Shown: in pieces, positions 34,862 through 44,458 of the stretch
How positions within the stretch are numbered: the first letter of the stretch is position 1
Layout of the letters: each line of letters begins with the position of its first letter
Assembly: GCA_011959285.1 (NCBI GenBank)
Contig: BLLW01000018.1
Span: 1 to 60,632 of the forward strand
Direction: 5' to 3'
Length of the DNA stretch: 60,632 nucleotides
Source: Lachnospiraceae bacterium
Lineage (GTDB): Bacteria; Bacillota; Clostridia; Lachnospirales; Lachnospiraceae
Position numbers and translations under genes: made by a program
Notes under the pieces: model-generated
Told to the model about the DNA's origin: nothing
Database searches by the model: none
The model's input: the letters and a program-made list of their open reading frames with translations, nothing else

Positions 34862-34890
34862 TTGACATTTTTTTACAGCTGCTATATACT
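34862..34890 (+). promoter_or_regulatory. Promoter of the fatty-acid synthesis operon
   Basis: TTGACA at 34862-34867 and TATACT at 34885-34890 with a 17-bp spacer. The first FabT-type operator begins on the last base of the -10 box. Confidence 0.88.
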
Positions 34891-34950
34891 TTGACCGTCA
34901 AATAGTTTGATAATCAAAATATTTGACGGTCAAAATGTTTGAATGTCAAA
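34890..34950 (+). promoter_or_regulatory. Array of four FabT-type operators
   Basis: Four 13-bp sites of the form TTTGAnnnTCAAA begin at 34890, 34906, 34922 and 34938, an exact 16-bp pitch. The second, TTTGATAATCAAA, is close to the streptococcal FabT site (TTTGATTATCAAA). Sites 1 and 3 are exact reverse complements, so 34890-34934 is also a near-perfect 45-bp inverted repeat. The array covers the transcription start and early leader, a position suited to repression. Confidence 0.85.
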
Positions 34951-34980
34951 TAAATCAAAAGGGAAAAAAGGAGAAAAAAT

Positions 34981-35211
34981 ATGTTTGAAAAAGTAGTGAA
35001 AATCATCAAAGAGCAGCTGAATATGGAAAATGCAGAAATCAAAATGGAAACTTCATTCAAGGAAGATCTTGATGTGGACTCATTGGATCTGTTTGAACTT
35101 GTGATGGCATTAGAGGAAGAATATGATATTGAGATTCCTTCTGAGGATCTTGAGCAGCTCACCACGGTAGGTGCGGTGGTTGATTACTTGAAAAACAAAG
35201 GGGCAGAATAA
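34981..35211 (+). CDS. acpP: Acyl carrier protein
   Basis: A 76-residue acidic helical protein with the phosphopantetheine attachment Ser34 in [10 protein letters not shown]. It carries the growing acyl chain. AAAAAGGAGAA precedes the ATG. Its TAA overlaps the fabK ATG (TAATG). Confidence 0.96.
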
Positions 35212-36140
35212 TGAAGACCAGAATAACAGAACTTTTGGGAATTGATTATCCAATCATACAAGGCGGAATGGCGTGGGTGGCAGAGCATCATCTTGCGGCA
35301 GCGGTTTCAGAGGCAGGTGGTCTTGGCATTATAGGGGCGGCAAGCGCACCGGCTGAGATTGTGCGGGAGGAAATCAGAAAAGCAAAGGAATTGACGGATA
35401 AGCCCATCGGGGTCAACATCATGCTGATGAATCCAAATGCGCCGGAAGTGGCAAAGGTGGTGCTGGAAGAGGGCGTCAAGGTGGTGACTACCGGCGCGGG
35501 AAATCCGGCAAAATTCATGAAGGATTTTAAGGAAGCAGGCGTTAAGGTCATACCAGTGGTTGCAAGTGTGGCTATGGCAAAGATGATGGAGCGGTGTGGT
35601 GCAGACGCAGTGGTGGCGGAAGGCACAGAGTCGGGAGGACATATTGGATCTGCAACTACTATGTGTCTGGTTCCCCAGGTGGTGGATGCAGTCCAGATTC
35701 CGGTCGTCGCGGCAGGCGGCATTGGAGATGGCAGAGGATTTGCAGCGGCATTCATGCTGGGTGCTGAAGCCGTGCAGATGGGTACTAGATTTGTGGTTGC
35801 CAAGGAATCCATTGTACATAAGAACTATAAGGAAAAGGTGATAAAGGCAAAGGACATTGACTCAGAGGTTACGGGCATGAGCACAGGACATCCGGTCCGT
35901 CAGATACGGAATCAAATGAGCAGAGAATATCTCCGATTGGAAAAGGAAGGGGCAGAGCTTGAAGAATTAGAGCGCTTGACACTTGGTTCTTTGCGCAAGG
36001 CTGTCATGGACGGAGATGTGGTCAACGGAACCCTGATGGCAGGTCAGATTGCAGGACTGGTAAAAAATGAACAGACCTGTAAGGAAATGATAGAAGAAAT
36101 TATGCAGGAAGCAGCCCTTCTTTTGGGACGAAAAGAATAG
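35211..36140 (+). CDS. fabK: Enoyl-ACP reductase II (FabK)
   Basis: A 309-residue FMN-dependent enoyl-ACP reductase of the nitronate monooxygenase-like fold: IIQGGMAWV near the start, GVNIMLMNPNAPEV, the FMN loop VVAAGGIGDGRG and MGTRFVVAKES. It catalyses the last step of each elongation cycle, in place of the triclosan-sensitive FabI. Translationally coupled to acpP. Confidence 0.93.
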   Translation: MKTRITELLGIDYPIIQGGMAWVAEHHLAAAVSEAGGLGIIGAASAPAEIVREEIRKAKELTDKPIGVNIMLMNPNAPEVAKVVLEEGVKVVTTGAGNPAKFMKDFKEAGVKVIPVVASVAMAKMMERCGADAVVAEGTESGGHIGSATTMCLVPQVVDAVQIPVVAAGGIGDGRGFAAAFMLGAEAVQMGTRFVVAKESIVHKNYKEKVIKAKDIDSEVTGMSTGHPVRQIRNQMSREYLRLEKEGAELEELERLTLGSLRKAVMDGDVVNGTLMAGQIAGLVKNEQTCKEMIEEIMQEAALLLGRKE

Positions 36141-36176
36141 GGAAAGACGTGCATAAGCACGCAGATGGGAGCAAAT

Positions 36177-37103
36177 ATGAGTAAAACAGCGTTTATGTTT
36201 CCGGGACAGGGAGCACAGTACATAGGAATGGGGAAAGACTTTTATGAAAAGGAAGAAACCGCTAAGGAGATTTTTGAAAAGGCAGGCAGTATTACTGGAC
36301 TGGATATGCCTTCTATCTGCTTTGTGGAAAATGACAGATTATCCATCACAGAATACACCCAGATTGCCATGCTCACAGTGGAAACCGCAATCTTAAAGGT
36401 ACTGGAGGAAAGAGGAATCCGTCCTGATGTGACGGCAGGATTAAGCCTTGGAGAATACGGAGCTATTGTGGCATGCGGCGCTATGCGTGCGGAGGATGCC
36501 TTTGCAGTGGTAAGAAGAAGGGGCGTATATATGCAGGAGGCAGTGCCGGAAGGAGGCGCTATGGCGGCAGTGATGGGGATTGGCGCTGATGTAATCGAGG
36601 AGGTCTGTCAGAATACACCAGGAATTGTTTCTATTGCCAACTATAACTGTCCAGGTCAGATTGTCATTACCGGGGAAGAGAAAGCGGTAAATGAAGCAGG
36701 AGAGACCTTAAAAGAAAAAGGAGCAAAACGCGTTGTTCCCTTAAATGTAAGTGGTCCTTTTCATTCACAGATGCTTACAGGAGCAGGGGAAAGGCTGAGG
36801 AAAGATTTGGAAAAGGTGCAGATTAGTGAGTTTTCCATTCCCTATGTGGCAAACCTTACTGCAGATTACGTTTCTTCGCCTGCAGATATCAGAGATTTGT
36901 TGGAAAAGCAGATTTCTTCTCCGGTAAGATGGCAGCAGTCGGTGGAGAGAATGCTGGCGGACGGCGTGGATACCTTTGTAGAAATTGGTCCAGGCAAAAC
37001 GCTTAGCAGCTTTGTGAAAAAGATAAACAGGGAAGTTACGGTTCTCAATATTGATAAATATGAAGATCTTGCAAAGTGTCTGGAGGTACTTAAAAATGCT
37101 TAA
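36177..37103 (+). CDS. fabD: Malonyl-CoA:ACP transacylase
   Basis: A 308-residue transferase with nucleophile S90 in GLSLGEY and the catalytic His in SGPFHSQ. It loads malonyl groups on ACP. The ATG at 36177 has GGGAGC upstream; the ATG at 36165 does not. The end overlaps fabG by 8 bp. Confidence 0.95.
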   Translation: MSKTAFMFPGQGAQYIGMGKDFYEKEETAKEIFEKAGSITGLDMPSICFVENDRLSITEYTQIAMLTVETAILKVLEERGIRPDVTAGLSLGEYGAIVACGAMRAEDAFAVVRRRGVYMQEAVPEGGAMAAVMGIGADVIEEVCQNTPGIVSIANYNCPGQIVITGEEKAVNEAGETLKEKGAKRVVPLNVSGPFHSQMLTGAGERLRKDLEKVQISEFSIPYVANLTADYVSSPADIRDLLEKQISSPVRWQQSVERMLADGVDTFVEIGPGKTLSSFVKKINREVTVLNIDKYEDLAKCLEVLKNA

Positions 37104-37836
37104 AGGAAAAGTAGCGCTGGTGACCGGTGCGGGAAGAGGAATCGGAAGGGAGATTGCAGTAACGCTTGCAAAGGAAGGCGCTTTTGTGATTGTCAATTTC
37201 AATGGCTCTAAAGAAAGAGCGCAGGAAACTGTGGAAGAAATCAAGAAAGCGGGGGGAGAGGCAGTTTCTTACGGTTGTAATGTGGCAGATTTTACTGCTT
37301 GTGGAGAAATGATTACGACACTGGTAAAAGAATATGGTCACATTGATATTCTGGTGAATAATGCCGGCATCACAAAGGATAACCTGCTGATGAAGATGAG
37401 TGAGGATGATTTTGACAGCGTAATCGATGTCAATCTCAAGGGATGCTTTAACACCATGCGGCATTTGTCGAGACAGATGCTGAAACAAAAAGGTGGGAAA
37501 ATCATCAATATTTCTTCCGTCACAGGTGTCATGGGAAATCCCGGGCAGGCAAATTATTGTGCTTCCAAGGCAGGGATCATCGGACTTACCAAAAGTGCGG
37601 CAAGGGAACTGGGAAGCCGGCAGATTACGGTGAATGCAGTGGCGCCCGGATTTATCGAGACAGAGATGACCAAGGATCTTTCAGATGCCATAAGGGAGAA
37701 TATGAAGGCGCAGATTCTGTTAAAGAGGACAGGGACTGCAAAGGAAGTGGCGGATGTAGTCGCATTTCTGGCATCTGAGGCAGCAAATTACATTACCGGT
37801 CAGGTAATTTCAGTGGACGGCGGAATGGCCGTGTAG
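37096..37836 (+). CDS. fabG: 3-oxoacyl-ACP reductase
   Basis: A 246-residue short-chain dehydrogenase: NADPH loop TGAGRGIGRE (10-19), NNAG (about 88-91), catalytic Ser in NISSVTG and YCASK with Tyr/Lys. It reduces beta-ketoacyl-ACP. The start at 37096 has GGAGG upstream within the end of fabD. Confidence 0.96.
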   Translation: MLKGKVALVTGAGRGIGREIAVTLAKEGAFVIVNFNGSKERAQETVEEIKKAGGEAVSYGCNVADFTACGEMITTLVKEYGHIDILVNNAGITKDNLLMKMSEDDFDSVIDVNLKGCFNTMRHLSRQMLKQKGGKIINISSVTGVMGNPGQANYCASKAGIIGLTKSAARELGSRQITVNAVAPGFIETEMTKDLSDAIRENMKAQILLKRTGTAKEVADVVAFLASEAANYITGQVISVDGGMAV

Positions 37837-37861
37837 CGTAATGGATGGAGGTCGAACAAAT

Positions 37862-39097
37862 ATGAGCAGACGTGTAGTAGTAACAGGAATGGGGGCAATC
37901 ACTCCCATCGGACTTAATGTAAATGATTTTTTCCAATCTATAAAAGAGGGAAAGCATGGATTTGGACCGATTACCAAATTTGACAGCGACGGATATAAAT
38001 GTCATGTTGCTGCTGAGGTAAAAGGATTTGATGCAAAGGACTATATGGATTTCAAAGCAGCGAAGCGTATGGAGCTTTTCAGCCAGTATGCAGTGGCAGC
38101 AGCCAAGGAGGCGCTTTCGGATGCAGGTATCGATATGGAGCAGGAAGATCCTTACCGTGTGGGATGCGCGGTTGGGTCCGGAATCGGAAGTCTTCAGGCG
38201 ATGGAGCGGGAGTATGACAGGCTGGTGAACAAGGGACCGAACAAGATTAGTCCCCTTATGGTGCCGCTTATGATTTCCAATATGGCAGCAGGAAATGTAT
38301 CTATTCAATTTGGACTTAAAGGCAAAAGCATCAATGTGGTCACTGCATGTGCCACGGGAACCAATTCCATCGGGGAAGCATTCCGCAGCGTTGCCTACGG
38401 GGAAGCAGATGTGATGGTTGCAGGCGGAACAGAGAGTTCCGTTACCCCCATTGGAGTTGCGGGCTTTTGTGCACTGACGGCGCTCACTTCTGAGGATGAT
38501 CCTGACAAATGTTCTCTTCCTTTTGACAAGAACCGTAGCGGTTTTGTTATGGGAGAAGGCGCAGGCATCGTAATTTTAGAAGAATTGGAGCATGCAAAGA
38601 AAAGAGGCGCCCATATTTATGCGGAGGTGCTTGGATATGGATGTACCAGTGATGCGTATCATATCACCTCTCCTGCCGAGGACGGCATGGGTGCGGCAAA
38701 GGCAATGCTCGCGGCGATAGAAGACGGAGGAATATCGCCGGAGGATATTACTTATATCAATGCCCATGGAACCGCGACCCACCACAATGACCTTTTTGAG
38801 ACGAGGGCGATCAAGGCAGCATTCGGCGATCATGCCCGGAAGATTCATATCAATTCTACCAAATCCATGATTGGGCATCTTTTGGGCGCTGCGGGAGCAG
38901 TGGAATTTGTAACCTGTGTAAAAGAGATGGAAGCTGGATTCATTCATAAGACGGTGGGATATGAGACGCCGGATGAGGAGATTGATTTGGATTATTGCAA
39001 GGAGCCTTATAAGGAAGAAGTGCCCTATGCACTTAGTAATTCTCTTGGATTTGGCGGACATAATGCAAGCATACTGATTGGGAAATACCGTGTTTGA
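37862..39097 (+). CDS. fabF: Beta-ketoacyl-ACP synthase II
   Basis: A 411-residue condensing enzyme with C163 in VTACATGTNS, a catalytic His in NAHGTATHHND and a second in KSMIGHLLGAAG. It elongates acyl-ACP. GGAGGTCG precedes the ATG at 37862. Confidence 0.96.
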   Translation: MSRRVVVTGMGAITPIGLNVNDFFQSIKEGKHGFGPITKFDSDGYKCHVAAEVKGFDAKDYMDFKAAKRMELFSQYAVAAAKEALSDAGIDMEQEDPYRVGCAVGSGIGSLQAMEREYDRLVNKGPNKISPLMVPLMISNMAAGNVSIQFGLKGKSINVVTACATGTNSIGEAFRSVAYGEADVMVAGGTESSVTPIGVAGFCALTALTSEDDPDKCSLPFDKNRSGFVMGEGAGIVILEELEHAKKRGAHIYAEVLGYGCTSDAYHITSPAEDGMGAAKAMLAAIEDGGISPEDITYINAHGTATHHNDLFETRAIKAAFGDHARKIHINSTKSMIGHLLGAAGAVEFVTCVKEMEAGFIHKTVGYETPDEEIDLDYCKEPYKEEVPYALSNSLGFGGHNASILIGKYRV

Positions 39098-39199: not shown

Positions 39200-39628
39200 A
39201 TGGCATTATTATCAGCAAAAGAAATTATGGAAATCATTCCCCACAGGCAGCCCTTCATGCTGCTTGACACGGTGGAGGAGATGACTCCAGGGGTTAAAGC
39301 AGTGGCAAAAAAATGTGTGTCTTATAATGAACCCTTTTTTCAGGGGCATTTCCCGGCAGAACCGGTCATGCCCGGCGTGCTGATCATAGAAGCATTGGCG
39401 CAGACCGGTGCGGTGGCAATCTTAAGTCTGGAGGAAAACAAGGGAAAGACAGCGTATTTTGCCGCCATCAACTCAGCAAAGTTTAAGAAAAAGGTGGCGC
39501 CCGGTGATGTACTTATGCTGGAGACAGAGATCATCAAGCAGAAAGGCGCTATCGGTATAGGCAAAGCAACGGCAACGGTGGACGGCAAGGTGGCAGTACA
39601 GGCAGAGCTTACCTTTGCAGTTTCATAA
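39200..39628 (+). CDS. fabZ: 3-hydroxyacyl-ACP dehydratase
   Basis: A 142-residue hot-dog-fold dehydratase with catalytic H50 and E64 in [30 protein letters not shown] precedes the ATG. The 102 bp after fabF carry no gene; in related operons accB usually lies here. Confidence 0.96.
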
Positions 39629-39657: not shown

Positions 39658-41436
39658 ATGTCAGGACTATTTCGCAGAGATAAATACATACATGTAAAAG
39701 GAGCCAGTGAAGAAGAAAAGACATCCGATAAGCTTAAGATCATAAGCAGACTGACTGAAAAAAAGGCAGGTAAGCGAGAGGAAAAAACAGAGGATAAGCA
39801 GGTTTTCGTCTGTCCTGACTGTGGCAGGGAACTGAGCAAGGCAGATGTTGTGGTCAATCACTACATTTGTACGGTATGTGGAAGCTATTTCCGCATAAGG
39901 ACAAAAAATAGAATTCGTATGATTTGTGATAAGGGCACCTTTCTTCCTTGGTTCGAGGAGGTGGAAAGCGCCAATCCCCTGAACTTTCCAGGATACGAGG
40001 AGAAGCTTTCAGATGTAAAAGAAAAGACCGGGCTCCATGAAGGCGTCAGTGTAGGCGTAGGGGAAATCTGCGGAGAAAAGGTATGCATCGGCGTATGTGA
40101 TTCCAGATTCCTGATGGGAAGCATGGGGCATGTGGTGGGGGAAAAGATTGCCCTTGCGGTAGAGCGCGCAACGAAAGAACGATTGCCCGTAATTCTCTTT
40201 TGCTGTTCCGGAGGGGCAAGGATGCAGGAGGGAATCATTTCCCTGATGCAGATGGCGAAGACTTCAGCGGCGCTTAAGAGACATTCGGATGCAGGGCTTT
40301 TGTATGTGACGGTATTGACCGATCCCACCACCGGAGGGGTGACGGCAAGTTTTGCCATGCTGGGGGATATTATACTAGCGGAGCCCGGAGCCCTCATCGG
40401 CTTTGCCGGTCCAAGGGTAATCGAGCAGACCATTGGTCAAAAGCTGCCCAAGGGCTTTCAGCGCGCGGAATTTCAGGTGGAACATGGGTTTGCTGACCGG
40501 GTGGTAGAAAGAGATGAGCTTAAGAACGTATTGTATCAAATCTTGAAATCGCATAGGATTTCTGCAGAAAATGAAAATTTCAGCCAGTTCACGGAGGAGA
40601 TAAAGAAATTTGATCCAAGCGAATTGGATAAGGAAAGGCAGGCGAAAACCGCTTTAAAGTCAGCCTGGGAAAAAGTGAAAGAGGCAAGGAGCATCAACAG
40701 ACCTTCTGCCCTTACCTACATTGATTTCATTTTTGATGAATTTATAGAGTTTCACGGAGACCGGGGCAGCGGCGATGACAAGGCTGTTGTCGGCGGAATT
40801 GCATGGCTGTATGGGCAGCCTGTCACGGTGATCGGCATTCAGAAGGGAAATGACGCGGATGAGTGTGCCATGAGGAATTATGGAATGGCATCTCCGGAAG
40901 GATACCGGAAGGCGCTCCGTCTGATGAAACAGGCAGAAAAATTCCACCGTCCTGTGATTTGTTTTATTAATACTTCCGGCGCTTACCCGGGAATGGAGGC
41001 GGAGGAAAAAGGACAAGGCGAGGCGATTGCAAGAAACCTCTTTGAGATGTCCGCGCTTACGGTGCCGGTTTTGTCCATCGTGATTGGTGAAGGGGGAAGT
41101 GGCGGCGCTTTAGGGCTTGCTGTGAGCAATGAAGTGTGGATGCTGGAAAATTCCACCTATTCTATCCTTTCACCGGAAGGATTTGCATCAATTCTCTGGA
41201 AAGACGGAAAACGGGCGCAGGAAGCGGCGGAAGTGATGGGAATCACAGCTGAAGATTTGAAACGCCTTTCTGTAATCGAGACCATCGTTCCTGAATACGG
41301 CAGTGCGGATGCTTCCACGGTAGAGGATATCGCCGGCTTTATGAAGGAGCATATGGTTGCCTTTTTGAGAAAGTTTGACGGAATGGATGGCGCAGCAATT
41401 GCGCAGGACAGATATGAGCGCTTCAGAAAATACTAA
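39658..41436 (+). CDS. accDA: Fused acetyl-CoA carboxylase carboxyltransferase (AccD-AccA)
   Basis: A 592-residue fusion. Residues 1-290 are AccD, with zinc ribbon Cys52, 55, 71 and 74, the [13 protein letters not shown] oxyanion segment and [14 protein letters not shown]. Residues from about 318 to 592 are AccA, with [19 protein letters not shown] and [12 protein letters not shown]. The enzyme transfers carboxyl from carboxybiotin to acetyl-CoA, giving malonyl-CoA. There is no stop between the halves. The biotin carrier and biotin carboxylase are not in the window. Confidence 0.95.
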
Positions 41437-41519
41437 GGAAGCGATGATGAAATCATCGTTTCCCAGCGTTAAAGGCAGGAAATTAAAGCAGGCAGATTGT
41501 GAAAGGGCATGGTTACGGA

Positions 41520-42587
41520 ATGAATGATAAAAAAGGATTGAGGATCGGTGAACTGACTGCAAGGATTCCTCTGGTACAGGGAGGAATGGGGGTAGGAATT
41601 AGTCTGTCCTCCTTGGCAGGCAATGTTGCATTAAACGGCGGAGTAGGCGTAATCTCATCAGCCCAAATCGGTTATCGCGATGCTGCGTGGGAAGAACACC
41701 CCATAGAAACCAACTTAAAGGCGCTGAAGGAAGAGATTGTCAAGGCAAAGAAAATTGCAAAGGGCGGCATCATCGGAGTCAATATCATGGTGGCGACCAG
41801 ATTTTATGAGAAATATGTAAGGACAGCGGTTGAAGCGGGCGCAGACTTGATTATTTCGGGAGCAGGCTTGCCGGTCAACCTTCCTTTGTTCGTAAAAAAT
41901 GCAAGGACCAAAATTGCGCCCATCGTTTCTTCCTTAAAATCATTGGAAGTGATAGCGAAATACTGGAAGAAAAAATATGACAGACAGCCGGACATGGTGG
42001 TGATAGAGGGACCTCTTGCCGGAGGGCACCTGGGCTTTCACAAGGAAGAACTTGAAAATATAGAAGCGCTTCATTATCATGAGGAGGTAAAGAAGATTAT
42101 TGACCGTGTCCATGAGATGAATCCTTCCATACCAGTGGTGGCGGCAGGCGGAATTTTTGAGGCGGAAGATGCAGTTCCTTACATGGGAATGGGGGCAGAC
42201 GGCGTACAGGTTGCGACTCGCTTCGTGCCCACCTATGAGTGTGATGCAGACATGCGATATAAGGAAGCCTATCTCCAGGCAAAAAAGGAGGATATCGTGA
42301 TTGTGGAAAGTCCGGTGGGAATGCCGGGAAGAGCAATCCAAAATCCTTTTCTTGAACAGGCAAAGAAAGGCACCCTCACCAAAGGAAGGTGCCACCAATG
42401 TCTGGAAAAATGTGATCCTGTGAAGATTCCATACTGTATTACAGATGCCCTTATTGCGGCGGCAAAAGGCGATATAGAGAATGGGCTTATTTTCTGCGGC
42501 GCAAATGCTTACAAAGCAGAAAAGCTGGAGCATGTGGCGGATATAATGAAAGAATTTGAGGAGGAACTGTCATGCTGGCAAGAATAA
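41520..42587 (+). CDS. FabK/nitronate monooxygenase-family flavoprotein, second paralog
   Basis: A 355-residue FMN enzyme of the same fold as FabK: PLVQGGMGVGISL, GVNIMVATRFYEKY, VVAAGGIFEAEDA and VATRFVPTYECD. Unlike FabK it has a Cys cluster near the C-terminus (GRCHQCLEKCDPVKIPYC). The start is uncertain: ATG 41520 or GTG 41499, both with weak ribosome sites. It overlaps fabH by 16 bp, so it belongs to the operon. It could be a second reductase or a nitronate/other oxidoreductase. Confidence 0.82.
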   Translation: MNDKKGLRIGELTARIPLVQGGMGVGISLSSLAGNVALNGGVGVISSAQIGYRDAAWEEHPIETNLKALKEEIVKAKKIAKGGIIGVNIMVATRFYEKYVRTAVEAGADLIISGAGLPVNLPLFVKNARTKIAPIVSSLKSLEVIAKYWKKKYDRQPDMVVIEGPLAGGHLGFHKEELENIEALHYHEEVKKIIDRVHEMNPSIPVVAAGGIFEAEDAVPYMGMGADGVQVATRFVPTYECDADMRYKEAYLQAKKEDIVIVESPVGMPGRAIQNPFLEQAKKGTLTKGRCHQCLEKCDPVKIPYCITDALIAAAKGDIENGLIFCGANAYKAEKLEHVADIMKEFEEELSCWQE

Positions 42588-43534
42588 TAGGAACAGGAAG
42601 TGCGCTTCCTGAAAAGATGGTTACGAATCAGGATTTAGAAAAGCTGATGGACACCACAGATGAATGGATAAAGAGCCGCACGGGTATAGAAAAAAGGCAT
42701 ATTGCAGTTACAGAGACGACAACTTCCATGGCGGTGGATGCGGCAGTGTGCGCCATGGAAGATGCAGGGATTACGGCGGAGGAAATCGACCTAATCATTG
42801 TGGGAACAGTGTCGGGAGATATGTGTTTTCCTTCAGCAGCCTGCCAGATACAAAGCGCCATAAAGGCATCTAATGCTACAGCCTTTGATATCAATGCCGC
42901 CTGCGCAGGCTTTCTCTTTGGACTGTCCATTGCAGATGCCTATATGAAATCCGGCGCGGTTAAAACTGCGCTGGTAGTGGGGGCAGAGACCCTTTCCAAG
43001 ATGATGGATTGGAATGACAGGGGAACCTGTGTCCTGTTCGGCGACGGTGCGGGAGCCGCGGTGGTCAGAAGTGAGGAAGCAGGCATCATAAGTATGGTGC
43101 AGGGATCGGACGGCTCAAGGGGCAACGCTCTTGTATGCCATAACAGAGAAGTAAATAACCCTTATGTAAAAAATAGTTGTGAGCTGGATTACACCAGCAT
43201 GGATGGGCAGGCAGTCTATAAATTTGCTGTCAAGACAGTTCCTTTGGCAATCATGCAGGCATTGGATCAGGCAGGAGTATCCGCCGATGAGATAAAATAT
43301 TTTATTCTGCATCAGGCCAATATACGCATCATCGAAGCCGTTGCAAAAAAAATGGGTCAGCCAATCGAAAAATTTCCCACAAACCTTCAGGAATGTGGTA
43401 ATATTTCAGCAGGAAGTGTTCCGATTTTGTTGGATTTTATAAATAAAGAGGGAAAACTGAATAAGGGAGACAAAATCGTACTTGCAGGATTTGGGGCAGG
43501 GCTTACTTGGGGGGCGGCGGTTCTTGTATGGTAG
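42572..43534 (+). CDS. fabH: Beta-ketoacyl-ACP synthase III
   Basis: A 320-residue initiating condensing enzyme with C111 in INAACAGFLFG, His in LHQANIRI and Asn in ECGNISAGS. It joins acetyl-CoA to malonyl-ACP. GAGGAGGAACTG precedes the ATG, inside the preceding gene. Confidence 0.95.
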   Translation: MLARIIGTGSALPEKMVTNQDLEKLMDTTDEWIKSRTGIEKRHIAVTETTTSMAVDAAVCAMEDAGITAEEIDLIIVGTVSGDMCFPSAACQIQSAIKASNATAFDINAACAGFLFGLSIADAYMKSGAVKTALVVGAETLSKMMDWNDRGTCVLFGDGAGAAVVRSEEAGIISMVQGSDGSRGNALVCHNREVNNPYVKNSCELDYTSMDGQAVYKFAVKTVPLAIMQALDQAGVSADEIKYFILHQANIRIIEAVAKKMGQPIEKFPTNLQECGNISAGSVPILLDFINKEGKLNKGDKIVLAGFGAGLTWGAAVLVW

Positions 43535-43614: not shown

Positions 43615-44094
43615 ATGGAACTTGATAAGGCATTAAATACATTGCTGGTCAAATTGTTCAGGGATATCATGAATATTGAAGAAGAGGTGCTGATTTCAGG
43701 AGAATTTACGGATATTACAATCAATGACATGCACGTGATTGAGGCAATCGGAACAGGCGGACCAAAGCCCAGTTCCGTTGTTGCCAAAAAGCTTTCTGTC
43801 ACCATGGGCACCTTGACGAAATCCATCGATAGACTGACCAGAAACCAATATGTGTTGAGAGAGCGGAGCGACGAGGATAAGCGTCTGGTATTGCTTTCTC
43901 TGACGGAAAAAGGAATAAAGGCTGACGCTCACCACCAGAAATTTCATAAAGAAATGATTGAGGCGGCGATGGCGCAGTTTGATGAACAGGAAACCAAGAT
44001 TTTGTTAGAATCGCTGGGCGGTCTGGCTGATTACTTTTCAGAACACAAGAAAAATGTAATTGCGGATGGAAGGAACAGCCAGCTAAGTGTATAG
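43615..44094 (+). CDS. fabT: FabT-like MarR regulator of fatty-acid synthesis
   Basis: A 159-residue winged-helix repressor closely following the FabT pattern: LFRDIMNIEEEVL, DITINDMHVIEAIG, VAKKLSVTMGTLTKSIDRL (recognition region), ERSDEDKRLVLLSLTEKG and HHQKFHKEMI. FabT proteins bind long-chain acyl-ACP as corepressor and TTTGAnnnTCAAA-like sites, four of which lie at the operon promoter. The start at 43615 has AGGAG 7 bp upstream. Confidence 0.88.
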   Translation: MELDKALNTLLVKLFRDIMNIEEEVLISGEFTDITINDMHVIEAIGTGGPKPSSVVAKKLSVTMGTLTKSIDRLTRNQYVLRERSDEDKRLVLLSLTEKGIKADAHHQKFHKEMIEAAMAQFDEQETKILLESLGGLADYFSEHKKNVIADGRNSQLSV

Positions 44095-44167
44095 ACAGCC
44101 AAGTGTATGGGAATTAAATGCATCGGCAGTTATACATCGGCAGGCGGTTAAAGCGTGGAGGACAAAG

Positions 44168-44458
44168 ATGATAGACAAGGAGAAGTTTCATGTTCTCAAC
44201 TATGTAAAAAAGGAAGAATACAGCGCAAGCATGGACGGCATGCGCTATATGCTCAAAAAGAAAGAGATAGAGGAAGGCTCCAGGCTGGAAGTGATTATCT
44301 GGCCGGAGCCTTACTGCTATGCAAAGACGCCGGAGGAAAAAAAACAGCGCAGAGAATTTGATTTTACACCGGAAGGCGTTACAAAGGCGGCGCAGTGGTT
44401 GAATGAACAATATCTGGAACAAAAGCCCTTATGGGAATTGTCCAAGAAGATGTCTTAA
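44168..44458 (+). CDS. Small conserved-looking protein at the fab operon end
   Basis: A 96-residue cytoplasmic protein beginning MIDKEKFHVLNYVKKEEYSA, with WPEPYCYAKTPEEKK in the middle. GTGGAGGAC precedes the ATG at 44168. It sits 73 bp after fabT and may be last in the operon. Family not recognised. Confidence 0.7.
   Translation: MIDKEKFHVLNYVKKEEYSASMDGMRYMLKKKEIEEGSRLEVIIWPEPYCYAKTPEEKKQRREFDFTPEGVTKAAQWLNEQYLEQKPLWELSKKMS

Follow-up and report, generated by a model that had tools for sequence, protein, structure and literature searches.

The window analysed here, a 60,632-base stretch of Lachnospiraceae DNA (contig BLLW01000018.1 of assembly GCA_011959285.1), carries a fatty acid synthesis (fab) operon on the forward strand with the gene order acpP-fabK-fabD-fabG-fabF-fabZ-accDA-NMO-fabH-fabT, where NMO denotes a nitronate monooxygenase-type flavoprotein gene. 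A promoter-like sequence and a tandem array of four FabT-type operators are located in the 134-base pair (bp) gap separating a DUF975 gene from acpP, the gene for acyl carrier protein (ACP). The promoter-like sequence, TTGACA-17 bp-TATACT (34862-34890, forward strand), matches the consensus at 11 of 12 positions and is composed of a -35 element at 34862-34867 and a -10 element at 34885-34890, the last base of which is also the first base of operator 1. Four exact TTTGAnnnTCAAA sites begin at 34890, 34906, 34922 and 34938, that is, at a pitch of 16 bp: operator 1 (TTTGACCGTCAAA, 34890-34902), operator 2 (TTTGATAATCAAA, 34906-34918), operator 3 (TTTGACGGTCAAA, 34922-34934, the exact reverse complement of operator 1) and operator 4 (TTTGAATGTCAAA, 34938-34950). 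The palindromes recur at 16-bp and their half-sites at 8-bp intervals, the latter alternating in orientation; the central triplets and spacers differ among the four units. Transcription is predicted to start at about 34897 on the forward strand, approximately 7 nucleotides past the -10 element and within operator 1, and a ribosome-binding site for acpP (AAGGAG, 34968-34973, forward strand) was read by eye.

Exact matches to TTTGANNNTCAAA in the window were confined to 34890-34902, 34906-34918, 34922-34934 and 34938-34950, and a preliminary description of this DNA had given the number, pitch and coordinates of the sites correctly. When up to two mismatches were allowed, 62 matches including the four array sites were obtained against a shuffle mean of 61.45, so that looser matches occur in the window at chance level. 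The expected number of exact sites in the 134-bp intergenic stretch, calculated from its own base composition, was 0.0006. The complete 4.23-Mb genome contained nine exact sites, four of which form the array, compared with seven for the reversed-pattern control. The remaining five were each situated within an open reading frame and were therefore taken as chance occurrences, and a wider regulon in the own genome, searched for by exact matches, was rejected on the same ground.

The last fab gene of the operon (fabT-like, 43615-44094, forward strand; start codon ATG at 43615 assigned by eye, with 43639-44094 used as the query in searches) encodes a MarR-family repressor. Its best NCBIfam model was NF050133 FabT, and the protein is called FabT-like because its score lay below the cut-off (129.6 bits against 200). 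In a control search, the same model exceeded its cut-off in none of 14 named genomes, Lactococcus lactis included, so the cut-off may be narrow. In the own genome, the FabT model gave a single strong match of 130.6 bits, and the next MarR protein scored 51.4 bits. By sequence, the best solved relative was pneumococcal FabT (6jbx, E 4.9e-23). The predicted structure (predicted local distance difference test score, 89) has a MarR fold with a winged helix-turn-helix and is closest to solved FabT, the best match in PDB being chain B of the pneumococcal FabT-DNA complex 6jbx (template modelling scores, 0.82 and 0.86; root-mean-square deviation, 1.5). The gene lies within the fab operon, right after fabH, and a FabT gene was directly 3′ of fabH in 27 of the 36 FabT-relative loci from named genomes. 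The Lactobacillales arrangement with fabT as the first operon gene was not found here, where it is the last fab gene. The operator sequence fits the published FabT consensus ANTTTGATTATCAAATT, and the array abuts the -10 element of the acpP-fabK operon. The earlier assignment of the sites as FabT-type operators at the fab operon start is thus supported by the consensus fit, by the FabT-like gene at the operon end and by the co-occurrence of FabT and arrays reported below.

For comparison with close relatives, fab-operon starts were selected through their proteins, irrespective of operators. A search for FabT relatives in the named genomes provided 36 loci, of which the distant L061 was left out, and a FabK search in 37 genomes of the genus provided loci from the 27 with a strong match, the 10 genomes with only weak matches being dropped. 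After removal of 14 loci without a FabK start from these 62, the remaining 48 were reduced to 32 different upstream regions, one of which is that of the window. At least two sites (9/10 matches or better) were found in 31 of the 32 regions, the exception being L054 with one site, and 67 of 71 distances between neighbouring sites were exactly 16 bp (the others were 32, 49 and, twice, 251). With 19 scrambled palindromes of equal composition, 590 of the 608 tests on the same 32 regions were without a match. The number of sites ranged from two to six, so that the four in the window belong to the upper part of the range: six of the 31 arrays were chains of two sites only, L095 contained five exact sites in a row, and L113 had a chain of six at 8/10 or better. 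The conservation of the 16-bp periodicity in relatives, which had been put forward as a check on the preliminary description, was thereby found, both in these distances and in the family scan described below.

The register between promoter and array was scored in 30 of the 31 arrays, as L036 lacks the space for a promoter. In 29 of the 30, the last base of the -10 element coincided with the first base of a site (24 arrays) or, the first site being decayed, lay exactly 16 bp earlier (5 arrays); in the thirtieth, L047, the -10 element was misplaced by the script, and the same rule was seen by eye. Of the 29 upstream regions in register, 28 had TTGACA with a spacer of 17, and L108 had TTGACT. In the 29-row alignment, site 2 was the most conserved, each of its TTTGA/TCAAA columns being kept in 28 or 29 rows, followed by the inner half of site 1 (TCAAA columns, 23, 27, 28, 29 and 29 of 29) together with site 3 (23 to 28 of 29), then by the outer half of site 1, the first T of which is fixed by the -10 alignment, and finally by site 4, which several relatives lack or keep only in decayed form. 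Between sites 16 bp apart, the base 8 bp from either centre serves as a flank to both. The FabT consensus, in the parts of PMC10138225 available to us, has A at the left and T at the right flank, and site 2 has A at -8 in 23 and T at +8 in 24 of the 29 relatives. Therefore, site 2 receives the preferred flanks at the expense of sites 1 and 3, and from this pattern of conservation it is probably the primary, nucleating site.

A scan of the family for pairs of sites at a set pitch, with up to two mismatches, was performed on 299 genomes from 298 genera. Pairs at 16 bp were found in 100 genomes (99 of the 298 genera), at 17 bp in 14 and at 15 bp in 7, and the reversed-pattern controls at 16, 17 and 15 bp gave 4, 7 and 10 genomes, respectively. 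A FabT match (profile A1, E up to 1e-20) was obtained in 156 of the 299 genomes, namely in 96 of the 100 with a 16-bp pair and in 60 of the 199 others (Fisher p 7e-31, uncorrected for relatedness), and such a link was missing for genomes with 17- and 15-bp pairs (p 0.18 and 1.0). Array loci were retrieved for 30 of the 100 pair genomes, 28 of them new, and 26 of these 28 were located upstream of fabH or acpP (exceptions, L135 and L138). Pairs of exact sites separated by a gap of 0-30 occurred in 20 of the 299 family genomes (reversed control, none), 11 of them at 16 bp and the other nine at a pitch of 14, 17, 18, 22, 30, 32, 33 (two genomes) and 35. At the level of the class, exact pairs were found in 18 of 341 genomes (reversed control, 3). 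Ten of these, the own genome among them, had a 16-bp pitch and fell under three family codes; another three, all with one family code, had 15-bp pairs upstream of fabH, and the last five had a pitch of 20 to 33. Among 119 genomes sampled from the phylum, exact pairs occurred in 4, compared with none for the reversed control. Apart from the own genome, these were two genomes whose 14-bp pairs adjoin FabT and one with a 21-bp pair close to acpP. The 16-bp pitch is thus dominant, and other pitches exist.

Natural variants of the spacing in other lineages include 14-bp pairs beside FabT in L155 and L156 (G715 and G669) and 15-bp pairs upstream of fabH in L086-L088. A separate observation concerns L022 (G052), in which the stretch 1501-1579 contains four TTTGAnnnTCAAA sites set exactly 22 bp apart by almost identical spacers; no clear fab genes are present at the locus (a single FabG-like hit, at 29%), the genome is without a FabT match, and the array looks like a true tandem repeat.

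The locus is best read as a promoter repressed by FabT with acyl-ACP through a tandem array on which several dimers are packed side by side at a 16-bp pitch, and we put the probability of this reading at roughly 0.78. We infer that FabT binds here and that acyl-ACP is its co-repressor. FabT, encoded by the last fab gene of its own target operon, would act as a dimer of the MarR type that requires long-chain acyl-ACP for activation; at high levels of acyl-ACP, dimers would fill the 16-bp-spaced sites from the end of the -10 element to about +54. Since site 1 covers the end of the -10 element and the predicted start point, its occupation would block RNA polymerase, and site 2 (about +10 to +22), as the best site, probably nucleates binding. 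Compared with a single site, several weak sites at a fixed distance would make repression stronger and steeper, and an array of constant pitch would be an obvious means to this end in the response to acyl-ACP. As proposed in the preliminary description, binding may be cooperative and filament-like, with neighbouring dimers assisting one another, or may serve to grade the repression. With 10.5 bp to the helical turn, 16 bp correspond to 189 degrees, 15 bp to 154 and 17 bp to 223. As 16 bp is the whole number nearest to 1.5 turns, neighbouring dimers would lie on nearly opposite faces of the DNA, and the alternation of faces proposed previously is right as geometry. A more far-reaching version, to which we give somewhat less than an even chance, is that a weak FabT is made a sharp switch by polyvalency: binding would nucleate at site 2 and spread over two to six sites as a helix-wrapping chain on alternating faces, and the number of intact sites would be an evolvable dial for the strength of repression and the acyl-ACP threshold.

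Several observations weigh against the favoured reading. At the sensitivity of the scan, 60 of the 156 FabT-matching family genomes lacked a 16-bp pair, and 4 of the 100 genomes with such a pair lacked a FabT match; the FabT-like protein itself is under the NCBIfam FabT equivalog cut-off. The 32 upstream regions are not independent, as 27 of the 62 source loci came from one genus by construction and others are from close relatives. In single family genomes, pairs at 14, 17 and 18 bp are located at fabH, and FabT- or fabH-linked pairs at 14 and 15 bp occur in other lineages, so that antipodal phasing is not universal. These last pairs are compatible with another possibility, namely that the dimers bind unaided, that the array only raises local occupancy or adds downstream roadblocks, and that 16 bp is the tightest packing without a clash. 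The MarR protein Rv2887, two dimers of which are said in the passages of PMC5526998 available to us to sit independently on one DNA, is a precedent for such binding and a further point against the favoured reading; on this evidence side-by-side binding need not be cooperative. Tight packing would, however, permit any larger distance, whereas 17-bp pairs were found in 14 of 299 genomes (at least two of which, G074 and G251, are fabH-linked; reversed control, 7) and 16-bp pairs in 100, and where single sites decay, the remaining sites hold the register. Independent binding is kept as a tentative alternative, less probable than the switch described above.

The other explanations are much less probable. 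That a regulator other than FabT reads the array is suggested by the low score against the NCBIfam FabT model, by the further MarR proteins of the genome and by the four array genomes without a FabT match; nevertheless, the operator fits the FabT consensus, 96 of the 100 array genomes have a FabT match, the FabT-like gene of the window belongs to the operon behind the array, and the FabT gene itself adjoins a site pair of this kind in L079, L155 and L156, which leaves such a regulator only a slight chance. The idea that the array is a mutational artefact, a recent functionless tandem duplication of a 16-bp unit, can practically be dismissed. Arrays of this kind do exist, L022 with its four near-identical sites at 22 bp being an example, but the four units in the window differ in central triplet and spacers, 26 of the 28 fetched loci are at fab promoters, and conservation contradicts a duplication, since 16-bp pairs occur in a third of the family scan (100 of 299) with the 15- and 17-bp controls, run at equal sensitivity, near background. 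Also very unlikely, if by a hair less so than another regulator, is selection of the inverted repeat as a hairpin in the acpP leader acting on mRNA stability or translation, as considered in the following.

Of the 22 pairs in the 45-bp inverted repeat at 34890-34934, a single one (position 16) is mismatched, and the near-perfect repeat with sites 1 and 3 as exact reverse complements that had been noted earlier was confirmed. As RNA the stretch folds well, with -27 kcal/mol from 34890 and -14.2 kcal/mol from the predicted start, and in either case none of 200 shuffles folded equally well. However, the predicted start in site 1 leaves the outer half of this site, and with it the outer stem, untranscribed, so that the full leader hairpin could not form, and covariation was lacking in the transcribed stem, pairs 8-38, 14-32 and 15-31 being near the shuffle mean and pair 16-30 below it. 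The palindromes are explained by protein sites, and the 6 of 31 arrays that are chains of only two sites speak against an RNA element as well. The leader hairpin suggested in the preliminary description was therefore rejected, folding and covariation giving nothing beyond the palindromy of the sites, and the 45-bp repeat appears to be mostly a by-product of self-palindromic sites.

A mirror relation between sites 1 and 3 was also analysed, with no control for shared ancestry. The fraction of complementary cells in their central triplets was 0.536, compared with 0.364 for shuffles, 1 of 2000 of which reached this value. Most of the signal came from position 7-39, the central bases of the two sites (34896 and 34928 in the window), which were complementary in 19 of 28 relatives against 8.9 expected and were the only site 1/site 3 pair to covary clearly. 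In these central bases, the array behaves like one mirrored about site 2. The cores showed no mirror symmetry about site 2 and the spacers were slightly opposite, and whole-array mirror symmetry was rejected, the signal being mostly from one position. Within single sites, symmetry was above that of the shuffles at site 3, where none of 2000 reached it, and weakly so at site 1, where 52 of 2000 did; site 2, which hardly varies, showed no excess.

As in the Lactobacillales (Streptococcus pneumoniae, Enterococcus faecalis, L. lactis and Streptococcus pyogenes), the palindrome ANTTTGATTATCAAATT and a homologous MarR repressor are found here. The same consensus was used for S. pyogenes, where the predicted site of fakB4 lies between the transcription and translation starts (PMC10138225, in the parts available). 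As far as the available passages of a 2026 commentary go (PMC13046290), the repressor gene of Lactobacillales is likewise within its own target operon, where unlike here it is the first gene; their FabT is a weak repressor that requires a 20- to 40-fold molar excess for a full operator shift, and deletion of fabT has 2- to 5-fold effects. Against this weak operator binding stand the 16-bp-spaced sites, four in the window and from two to six in its relatives. With acpP as the first gene of the operon and fabT as the last of its fab genes, the 'perfectly coupled' circuit logic described in the same commentary is retained. With exogenous fatty acid, larger effects are given in the parts of two papers that were accessible, namely more than 50-fold for fatty acid synthesis in E. 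faecalis (PMC9083066) and 12-fold for fabT expression in S. pyogenes (PMC10138225). In the solved complex of Rv2887, to judge from the same passages, two dimers are bound on nearly opposite faces of one DNA, each over approximately 15 bp, and the complex is likened by its authors to those of ST1710 and QacR (PMC5526998). By analogy with this complex, alternating-face packing of FabT dimers is plausible. Rv2887 differs from the present case in that two dimers are on one operator, with no conserved array of up to six sites, and going by those passages it is apparently no regulator of fatty acids (PMC5526998).

A literature search for FabT combined with Lachnospiraceae, with cooperativity and with MarR tandem operators, the main FabT review lying outside its coverage, returned no description of such an array. 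The tandem array at a 16-bp pitch, to which binding is predicted from sequence, would thus be a previously undescribed arrangement of the sites of a known regulator. MetJ, a ribbon-helix-helix protein unrelated to FabT, is a co-repressor-dependent repressor of biosynthetic operons that binds side by side to a variable number of tandem 8-bp met boxes. The array would resemble this system in having a co-repressor-dependent repressor of a biosynthetic operon and a variable number of tandem sites; the palindromes here recur every 16 bp, whereas the MetJ boxes are 8 bp. The genus Butyrivibrio belongs to the same family, Lachnospiraceae. According to the portion available of a 2015 Butyrivibrio paper, FabT could not be verified there (PMC4478896), against which stand the 156 of 299 family genomes that match the FabT profile. 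The conserved multi-site array suggests that Lachnospiraceae have strengthened or sharpened a weak repressor by packing its sites, and the natural variation in the number of sites (from two to six) and in their spacing (14, 15 or 16 bp) would offer a ready series for measuring the effects of site number and helical phase on the response to acyl-ACP.

The other genes of the operon, all on the forward strand, were assigned as follows: acpP (76 amino acids, 34981-35211; NF002148 and TIGR00517 over cut-off), fabK for enoyl-ACP reductase II (35211-36140; TIGR03151, 491 bits, over cut-off), fabD for malonyltransferase (36165-37103; TIGR00128 over cut-off), fabG for ketoacyl-ACP reductase (37051-37836, with the start probably at about 37096 by eye; TIGR01830 over cut-off), fabF for ketoacyl-ACP synthase II (37841-39097; TIGR03150 over cut-off), fabZ for hydroxyacyl-ACP dehydratase (39200-39628; TIGR01750 over cut-off), accDA for a fused carboxyltransferase beta-alpha (592 amino acids, 39658-41436; accD and accA models over cut-off), the gene for a second FabK-like or nitronate monooxygenase-type flavoprotein (41499-42587; PF03060, with TIGR03151 at 122 bits, below cut-off) and fabH for ketoacyl-ACP synthase III (42572-43534; TIGR00747 over cut-off).

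Although accDA is fused there, no accB or accC reading frame was present between the genes of the operon, to which the inspection for accB was confined. The biotin carboxylase model TIGR00514 gave a best match of at most 62 bits (cut-off, 626.5) in the own genome and five others of the genus, one of which is rated 100% complete; the stronger of these hits were in frames of about 900-1090 amino acids and were taken for carbamoyl-phosphate synthase. The accDA operon thus poses the question of malonyl-CoA synthesis without AccC. A reading frame of 123 amino acids (44087-44458) overlaps the end of fabT; it had no Pfam match at E 0.001 and one weak hit below cut-off at E 10, and in 19 of the 36 FabT-relative loci a related frame stands after fabT. 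A relative of the flavoprotein at 41499-42587 was found directly behind a 16-bp pair of FabT sites in eight loci from other families of Clostridia (L074-L078 and L080-L082), and in four of these eight FabT came after it within the locus.
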